Source of the DNA: Candidatus Caldarchaeum subterraneum
GTDB lineage: Archaea; Thermoproteota; Nitrososphaeria_A; Caldarchaeales; Caldarchaeaceae
NCBI GenBank assembly: GCA_000270325.1
Contig: BA000048.1
Span: forward strand, 999,024-1,063,023
Reading direction: 5' to 3'
Length of the DNA: 64,000 bases
This document shows, one piece after another, positions 31,636 to 33,087 of this stretch. Positions within the stretch are counted from its first letter, which is position 1. The number at the start of each line of letters is the position of its first letter. A program made the translations under genes and the position numbers. The notes under the pieces were generated by a model. It was not told the DNA's origin. It made no database searches and saw nothing but the letters and a program-made list of their open reading frames with translations.

Positions 31636-31725
31636 GCAAGCCAAAACCTCCACAAATCCAGCACAAGGCAAAACCAGAATAAGATACACGTGAAAGAGAA
31701 TTAGGTCACAAAACAAATCTCCAAA

Positions 31726-31734
31726 AAATTATAT
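31726..31734 (+). promoter_or_regulatory. TATA box of GHKL/STAS-like pair
   Basis: AAATTATAT within an A-rich run, about 35 bases before the ATG at 31765. It predicts a short leader and marks an AT-rich transcription unit. Confidence 0.5.
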
Positions 31735-31764
31735 CACAGTTAATCTACTACTTTGGTTATCGGA

Positions 31765-32565
31765 ATGGAATTAGTGAAGTGCTACGTAAAATTTTGTCAA
31801 CACAGACAACATATTGAAACTTCTTCAGAGCTAGATTTAACCGATGAAATCTTCATTTACCCATCGACATTCACACCTTTACTAGCTTATCTTCTTGCCT
31901 TAGACTCTGATAAGATACCCATAAAGTGGCCTAAAGATGAGTCTGTAAAAAATTACATGCTGACGATTCTAAGAAGTGCAAAGACTGGAAAAAAGGGCGC
32001 CACCTACATACCCTTTATCCCCCTTCCAAAAGAGAAAACACAGGCTGATAAAATTTTAACAGAGTTCTGGCGGCTTGTAGGTGAGGACGAATTCATAAAA
32101 AATAACTACTCCTCACTTAACTATGTCTTAGGCGAGTTTGTATCAAACATTTACGAACATTCAGAGTTTACAAACGCTTATATCATGGCCCAGAAATATT
32201 CGAGTAAGGGGTTTGTGGAACTTTGTGTCGTTGATGATGGAATAACCATACCCGGCTCGTTCAACAAGCATGGATATAACTACAATGATAATGAACATGC
32301 ACAAGCTATACGAGATGCGATTAATGGTAAATCTACAAAGGGGCCTGATAGAGGCTTTGGGCTCGGGACCTCGGCAAACATAATTTATAAAGGCTTTAAG
32401 GGGGAGATACTAGTGGTCTCCTGCCTTGGAGCAGTTGGCATTAGTCAGAAAGGTATGCAACCTTATATTCTTCGAGAAAGCATGCGATATAACGGCACTC
32501 TAATAGCTGTTAGGGTTCCATTAATCACTGAAAAGGTTGATCTTTATGCTTATATCGAGCAGTAG
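31765..32565 (+). CDS. GHKL (histidine kinase-like) ATPase domain protein
   Basis: A 266-residue protein with a lone GHKL ATPase fold in its C-terminal half: N-box LGEFVSNIYEHS (E124, N128, H132), G1 box VVDDGITIPGSF (D157-D158), and G2 box DRGFGLGTSANII (194-206). The N-terminal 95 residues match nothing I recognise, and there is no phospho-acceptor His domain. This is the architecture of anti-sigma-type kinases (RsbW/SpoIIAB) or stand-alone ATPases. Codons are more AT-rich than the neighbours. An in-frame TTG lies 12 bases upstream. Pairs with the STAS-like gene 13 bases downstream. Confidence 0.82.
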   Translation: MELVKCYVKFCQHRQHIETSSELDLTDEIFIYPSTFTPLLAYLLALDSDKIPIKWPKDESVKNYMLTILRSAKTGKKGATYIPFIPLPKEKTQADKILTEFWRLVGEDEFIKNNYSSLNYVLGEFVSNIYEHSEFTNAYIMAQKYSSKGFVELCVVDDGITIPGSFNKHGYNYNDNEHAQAIRDAINGKSTKGPDRGFGLGTSANIIYKGFKGEILVVSCLGAVGISQKGMQPYILRESMRYNGTLIAVRVPLITEKVDLYAYIEQ

Positions 32566-32578
32566 TAAAGGAGATGGC

Positions 32579-32887
32579 ATGAGGCTGAAGGTTGCCGAGG
32601 TTTTGTCAGAGAACCTCATTCTACGCGACACAGCGAATATGTTGTTTGACATGGTTGAGAAGAATGATGAAAAGGAGGTGGTCTTAGACTTTGAGGGAGT
32701 GAGGAGTATCAGCAGATCTTTTGCGCATCAGTATGTTCTGAGGAGAAAGTCATCACCAAAGACAATAAAAGAGGAAAATGTGCCTGAAGAAGTGCTGAAA
32801 ATGTTCAGAATAGTTTCGGAGAGACGCCAGCCAAGGCATGAGCTTCCCCCAGCCAATCAACCCATTCTGCTTGAACCACAAGCATAA
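32579..32887 (+). CDS. STAS-like domain protein (DUF4325 type)
   Basis: A 102-residue protein reading KEVVLDFEGVRSISRSFAHQYV in its core, which matches the STAS-like DUF4325 family (beta strand, then the loop around the Ser usually phosphorylated in STAS anti-anti-sigma factors). A clear Shine-Dalgarno-like AAAGGAGA precedes the ATG, unlike the leaderless genes around it. Encoded just after a GHKL ATPase, as in bacterial partner-switch pairs. Archaea lack sigma factors, so the regulated target is unknown. Confidence 0.75.
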   Translation: MRLKVAEVLSENLILRDTANMLFDMVEKNDEKEVVLDFEGVRSISRSFAHQYVLRRKSSPKTIKEENVPEEVLKMFRIVSERRQPRHELPPANQPILLEPQA

Positions 32888-32993
32888 ATGATGTCTTCTA
32901 GCAAACCTTAAAATTTTCTAAATACAGGCTGGTGGGTTAACTCGAAATCCTCCCCTGTGATAATACTAGGTTAAGAGAAATAACTATTGAGAT

Positions 32994-33003
32994 GTTTAAG
33001 TTT
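32994..33003 (+). promoter_or_regulatory. TATA-like element of C/D sRNA candidate
   Basis: GTTTAAGTTT, centred about 31 bases before the first base of the predicted C/D RNA terminal stem. Confidence 0.35.
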
Positions 33004-33029: not shown

Positions 33030-33087
33030 CTGCTATGATGAGTCTGACCAGTCTGATCTGGTGACTGGGATCTTGAGCTCTGAGCAG
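33030..33087 (+). ncRNA. Candidate C/D box methylation-guide sRNA
   Basis: Elements occur in the right order and spacing: terminal stem CTGC (33030-33033), perfect C box ATGATGA (33035-33041), 11-base guide, D' box CTGA (33053-33056), 4-base spacer, degenerate C' box GTGACTG (33061-33067), 12-base guide, D box CTGA (33080-33083), closing stem GCAG (33084-33087). Archaeal C/D sRNAs are 50-60 bases with just this layout. By the N+5 rule the guides would direct 2'-O-methylation within ACUGGUCAGAC and AGCUCAAGAUCC. The target RNA was not identified. Confidence 0.68.

Follow-up and report, generated by a model that had tools for sequence, protein, structure and literature searches.

A laterally acquired kinase–STAS gene pair in Candidatus Caldarchaeum subterraneum resembling the CapK-CapS and VapK-VapS switches

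The pairing of a GHKL kinase with a STAS-domain partner that it switches is a textbook bacterial device for controlling sigma factors. Candidatus Caldarchaeum subterraneum, an uncultured and heat-loving archaeon, carries such a pair, and since archaea to our knowledge have no sigma factors, a sigma-factor target cannot hold for it. The locus raises the question of where the pair came from and what it may control. The window is the whole stretch analysed, 64 kb (G000:C1:999024-1063023) of the single-contig, 1,680,938-bp genome, and positions given without a contig are counted from its first letter.

The insertion and its empty site

Two genes on the plus strand make up the locus, as the preliminary description had it. 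The first (31765..32565) encodes a VapK/CapK-like GHKL kinase of 266 aa, supported by ORF call, Pfam, PHROG 3364 and AlphaFold2; its best start is ATG 31765 (a TTG at 31753 lies four codons further upstream) and its stop is at 32565. The second (32579..32887), 13 bp behind it on the same strand, encodes a VapS-like protein of 102 aa with a DUF4325/STAS domain (Pfam PF14213, E 3.5e-9, above the cut-off). Together the two genes are 41.1% GC in a window of 53.3% (z about -4.7), and the lowest GC of the whole 64 kb is found at the pair, which bears out the earlier remark that the locus is AT-rich.

A sister genome of the same genus (G003) has the same site without the pair. When L069/L084 are compared with the window by blastn, both flanks match G003 at 91.5-92.6% nucleotide identity, and in G003 the base matching window position 31649 is followed without a gap by that matching 33002, i.e., G003 lacks a 1,352-bp insertion at 31650..33001. 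An AT-rich insert had been placed at 31726-32887; it does lie there, but the true insert is larger and takes in about 115 bp of non-coding sequence on each side of the two genes, which are its only other content. The insert ends 114 bp past gene 2, and the next gene, encoding a mechanosensitive-channel-like membrane protein, is also present in G003, there without the insert. Two further genomes (G001 and G004) likewise have no insert between the same neighbour genes.

The pair was thus gained laterally, and because G003 is precisely without the insert, this conclusion goes beyond composition alone. Since G001 and G004 also lack the insert, it was more probably gained in the window lineage than lost from G003. 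The recent transfer proposed earlier is upheld by the empty site and by a search of 43 other genomes of the class, which found no relative of the kinase.

How the insert entered the chromosome is less plain. Inspection of the junction revealed no target-site duplication longer than 1 bp and no convincing flanking repeat, the insert contains no integrase or transposase, and no tRNA was found at the insertion site; recombinase-driven integration was rejected on these grounds. The source need not be remote. Gene 2 is 61% identical to a solo DUF4325 copy in its own genome, which is above any other homologue, and the DNA similarity between the two (71%) starts about 10 bp upstream of the gene 2 ATG and stops short of the kinase gene. 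The nearest relatives of the kinase are only about 40% identical to it. Because gene 2 is closest to a copy in its own genome, recent transfer does not have to mean a distant donor; either a related archaeon or a mobile element that circulates in the window lineage could have been the source.

The insert appears to bring its own expression signals. A TATA-like element, AAATTATAT, lies at about 31726..31734 on the plus strand, roughly 30 bp upstream of the kinase ATG, and from this position the insert would seem to bring an archaeal-type promoter of its own for the pair. Gene 2 is preceded by the Shine-Dalgarno sequence AAAGGAG (32567..32573, plus strand), which had been taken as a further mark of transfer. 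The sequence is there, but similar ones precede 14/37 inner genes and 10/26 first or isolated genes in the window, so we do not regard it as a sign of transfer. Outside the insert, starting 29 bp to the right of the insertion point, there is a candidate C/D-box small RNA (33030-33087, plus strand) with the boxes ATGATGA, CTGA, a GGTGA-type box and CTGA. Its sequence is kept in G001, G003 and G004, and it matches several C/D-box families, all under their gathering scores.

The kinase and its STAS partner

The kinase falls under the gathering score of its Pfam family (HATPase_c, E 2e-4, residues 116-252) and matches PHROG 3364 with an E-value of 5e-36. Its AlphaFold2 model, built from 38 sequences, has a pLDDT of 91.8; sequences from records annotated as phage or plasmid were left out of the input alignments for structure models. 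Foldseek places a GHKL ATPase/kinase domain at residues 109-252 (32089..32520, plus strand). Among the Foldseek matches listed, SpoIIAB (1til_E) ranks first by TM-score relative to target length (0.73, probability 1.00, E 2.8e-3), with the proviso that E-values were modest throughout and none was below 0.001. SpoIIAB is also at the top of the fold matches of a homologue in which kinase and STAS protein are naturally fused. As modelled, the ATPase core is thus closest in fold to this anti-sigma kinase. Its catalytic boxes are intact: the N box (E124, N128, H132), G1 box (D157, G159) and G2 box (G197, G199) are made of residues that are invariant or near-invariant across 47 kinase sequences.

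The N-terminal domain (residues 1-70; 31765..31974, plus strand) had been called unknown. It does indeed have no match in Pfam, NCBIfam or PADLOC, but it is most likely a degenerate STAS domain in which Pro-Thr replaces the phosphosite. An hhalign comparison puts it in register with the STAS profile of its own partner over 64 columns (P 1.7e-4, at a probability of only 50%), and the N-terminus of the fusion homologue is modelled as strand-helix-strand-helix-strand-helix-strand, which is a STAS-like order. CapK and VapK are likewise described as STAS-GHKL proteins, those without a helix-turn-helix (HTH) domain being of the VapK type (PMC13373217). Two conserved aromatic residues, F30 (F or W in 40/47) and Y64 (Y in 45/47), are candidates for the stacking residue equivalent to CapK W68 and VapK F54, the aromatics that bind ssDNA in those kinases.

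The product of gene 2 has a short C-terminal tail, no winged helix and nothing else beyond its STAS domain. Searching the PDB with this single sequence gave no match, and searching with the DUF4325 family profile gave Escherichia VapS (9z7o, E 1e-4) as the sole significant match. Conservation in homologues draws attention to Ser47 (codon 32717..32719, plus strand), the third position of an SRSF motif. Of the 80 kinase-linked homologues that are not gapped at this position, 76 have serine. The other four are three extra upstream copies, all from loci that have another DUF4325 gene as well, and L067, whose Thr comes one residue earlier. At L118, L120 and L125, DUF4325 genes stand on both sides of the kinase gene, and the upstream copy reads TMNF or TMNY for SRSF.

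Solo DUF4325 homologues have the serine in 0/3 cases (A, A and E instead). It would appear that the residue is kept beside a kinase and lost in solo copies, but with so few sequences, two of them orthologous to each other, this is suggestive only. In an ungapped profile alignment VapS Ser48 falls opposite the Arg of SRSF, one residue before Ser47, and this Arg is flanked by a conserved Ser on both sides. For this reason Ser47 is only a proposal as the phospho-acceptor.

The solo gene of the window's own genome (L002, G000:C1:930433-930813) and its G003 counterpart (L006) have neither a kinase nor the motif serine, and in both species they overlap the gene of a DnaJ-domain protein. A PIN-domain match lies at 934603 of the same genome, about 4 kb from the solo gene.

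Pairing, distribution and neighbouring genes

Do the two genes belong together? An alignment-based scan recovered 43 loci in species genomes and a viral scan recovered 10. Across about 80 loci in archaea, Bacteroidota and phages, the STAS gene adjoins the kinase gene in nearly all, usually overlapping it or lying within about 100 bp. Exceptions include L038, where no DUF4325 gene was found, and L051, where the order is reversed. One locus (L054) is the natural kinase-STAS fusion. Within a Methanobacteriaceae family set, 52/139 genomes have a kinase match, many of the copies being decayed, and the partner is present in 29/30 of the loci inspected. Pairwise distances of kinase and partner are strongly correlated (Mantel r 0.80, null maximum 0.24 in 2,000 permutations). 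By adjacency, co-variation and fusion the kinase and STAS genes are one unit, as had been supposed, and this two-gene form is the majority across archaea.

The pair is found in Bathyarchaeota, Nitrososphaerota, Methanobacteriota, Thermoplasmatota, several DPANN groups and Bacteroidota, as well as on a halophile plasmid and in phages. In Bacteroides phage BF1-TP2 it is near an endolysin gene, and in streptococcal prophages it sits between a lysin gene and an integrase gene. Most recovered loci, however, are on cellular archaeal contigs with no evident viral neighbourhood. This distribution is mobile and accessory, viruses included, and is not that of vertically inherited housekeeping genes, which the preliminary description had named as the finding that would speak against it.

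Among viruses, the kinase is matched best (38% identity over 94%) in Methanothermobacter prophage psiM100 (AF301375), where ORFB-ORFC-ORFD, all three named "unknown" in the record, lie on fragment IFa, which the depositors annotated as inserted. The 492-aa ORFD (L010:7126-8604) has a start that looks PIN-like by eye, although neither Pfam nor the PDB backs this, and its middle part is acetyltransferase-like according to PHROG; judged from its sequence, it is likely to be a toxin-type partner of the archaeal pair. L067, a remote relative, has a complete VapKSC layout of kinase, VapS (9z7o, E 6e-7) and PIN domain. Apart from psiM100 (by eye) and L067, no PIN-type gene stands directly behind the pair. 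Three Methanobacteriaceae loci (L049:8015-8533, L106 and L115:2585-3064) instead have a predicted multi-helix membrane protein in that place. They represent two lineages, L049/L106 and L115, whose membrane proteins are 35% identical and have no convincing Pfam family; this protein is a possible alternative effector.

A conserved third gene was looked for across the archaeal relatives and none was found; neighbours in cellular archaea are miscellaneous. The commonest neighbour family is phage integrase, at 5/121 neighbour proteins. In the suggested survey for defence islands PADLOC gave scattered matches only, taken here as raw hits, and no match for the pair itself. Neither protein of the pair matches a known toxin family in Pfam, NCBIfam or PADLOC. 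The genome as a whole has 11 PIN-domain matches, 0 of them in the window.

Known switches and rival explanations

The comparison that matters most is with the CapKS and VapKSC systems, reported in EMBO J in 2026 together with a VapS structure, PDB 9z7o (PMC13373217). CapK phosphorylates CapS once activated by ssDNA, and a bacterial version of the switch turns on anti-virus systems upon DNA damage, with immune operons and a PIN toxin among the CapKS/VapKSC outputs (PMC13373217). VapS is the antitoxin of a VapC-like PIN toxin, the S48E substitution breaks the VapS-VapC complex, and the vapKSC operon, which is reported across bacterial groups, gives about 2-log protection against one phage (PMC13373217). 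The kinship with sigma-type partner switches noted earlier holds at the level of GHKL and STAS domains, but the closest characterised relatives are CapKS/VapKSC, which are not sigma switches (PMC13373217).

VapKSC shares with the window pair its gene order (kinase, then STAS protein), a STAS-GHKL kinase without HTH (the STAS assignment being moderately supported in the window kinase) and a STAS protein of about 100-116 aa with a short C-terminal extension, homology to VapS being recognised by family profile. Unlike VapKSC, the window pair is archaeal, has the SRSF Arg at the position of VapS Ser48, which is the phosphorylated residue of VapS and an absolutely conserved Ser/Thr in VapKSC, and is followed by no VapC/PIN gene. 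Because there is no adjacent VapC toxin gene, the pair is not a VapKSC system in the strict sense. CapK-CapS is also a kinase-STAS gene pair, and every capK is followed by capS, in association with immunity (PMC13373217). However, the N-terminal HTH of CapK and the C-terminal winged helix of CapS are both missing from the window pair, and no immune operon lies downstream in the insert.

The bacterial SpoIIAB/RsbW-SpoIIAA/RsbV switches likewise combine a GHKL serine-kinase fold with a STAS substrate, but the window kinase has an extra STAS-like domain. The phosphosite motif of SpoIIAA/RsbV is of the DSSG type, which SRSF replaces in the window protein. psiM100 has the same gene order as the window and is also an insertion, but there the 492-aa third protein follows and in the window none does.

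We favour the reading, and put its probability at about 0.6, that the locus is a laterally acquired archaeal switch made of two genes and akin to CapK-CapS/VapK-VapS: the STAS protein would be phosphorylated by the kinase and an effector set free. In its favour are the empty site, the constancy and co-variation of the pair, the kinase fold with its intact catalytic boxes, the match of the partner family to VapS, the layouts of L067 and psiM100, the serine kept beside a kinase, and the patchy, mobile distribution. By analogy with the bacterial systems, gene 1 would be a STAS-GHKL protein kinase and gene 2 its STAS-domain substrate. At rest the STAS protein would bind and hold the effector, which its short C-terminal tail may block, as in VapS. 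A stress signal, perhaps ssDNA from DNA damage or virus infection, would activate the kinase, and phosphorylation at SRSF Ser47 would release the effector or de-repress the target. Since the insert would hold only the control half, the effector would have to be encoded elsewhere, e.g., by an unlinked PIN-domain gene, unless the STAS protein itself acts; a benefit in defence would be expected by the same analogy. Against the switch stand the absence of a toxin gene or immune operon beside the window pair, the absence of a conserved third gene among archaeal relatives, the Arg at the Ser48 position, the low identity of even the nearest kinase relatives, and the fact that experiments exist for distant bacterial relatives only.

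Other readings explain parts of the same evidence. A stand-alone stress switch that acts on transcription or metabolism and plays no part in defence or toxicity would account for the miscellaneous neighbours in cellular archaea, the lack of a conserved effector gene among them and the merely scattered defence-type matches. We consider it unlikely, however, as patchy distribution, virus carriage, decayed copies and precise recent gain are typical of accessory conflict genes rather than of housekeeping regulators. Virus carriage has a reading of its own: the pair could be prophage cargo for counter-defence or superinfection control that silences host effectors or immunity, with host PIN toxins as the targets of the STAS protein in an antitoxin role, and could have arrived as viral debris. 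Its presence in psiM100, BF1-TP2 and streptococcal prophages fits, as does an insert with no toxin in a genome whose 11 PIN-domain matches all lie outside the window. Yet most loci are in cellular archaeal contigs without evident virus surroundings, the insert holds no further viral gene, and a kinase that inactivates an antitoxin would be odd in pure antitoxin cargo, all of which makes this origin rather improbable.

Least probable, and in our judgement very much so, is a remnant: a VapKSC-like operon whose toxin gene has gone and which no longer functions. The third gene of psiM100 and L067 is absent from the window, and many relatives in the Methanobacteriaceae set are decayed, but both window genes are intact, with catalytic boxes and motif conserved. 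This reading is further disfavoured because the two-gene form is the majority in archaea, which would require independent toxin loss everywhere, and that is hard to accept.

Returning to the switch, the papers we found do not describe an archaeal form of CapKS/VapKSC. A wider proposal, which we offer tentatively and hold to be doubtful as a whole, is that archaea have a widespread CapKS/VapKSC branch without a linked effector. It would be a mobile two-gene "controller" for effectors supplied by the host or a third gene (the PIN-like protein of a virus, the membrane proteins of Methanobacteriaceae), its phosphosite would be shifted by one residue, and solo STAS copies, including the one in the window's own genome, having lost the phosphoserine, could serve as kinase-blind (always-on) antitoxins. 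The small size and intactness of the pair leave binding, phosphorylation and dependence on ssDNA open to direct testing, and the solo gene provides a built-in natural control for the phosphosite. A pair that moves freely across archaea without sigma factors would make the kinase-STAS device a general control module.
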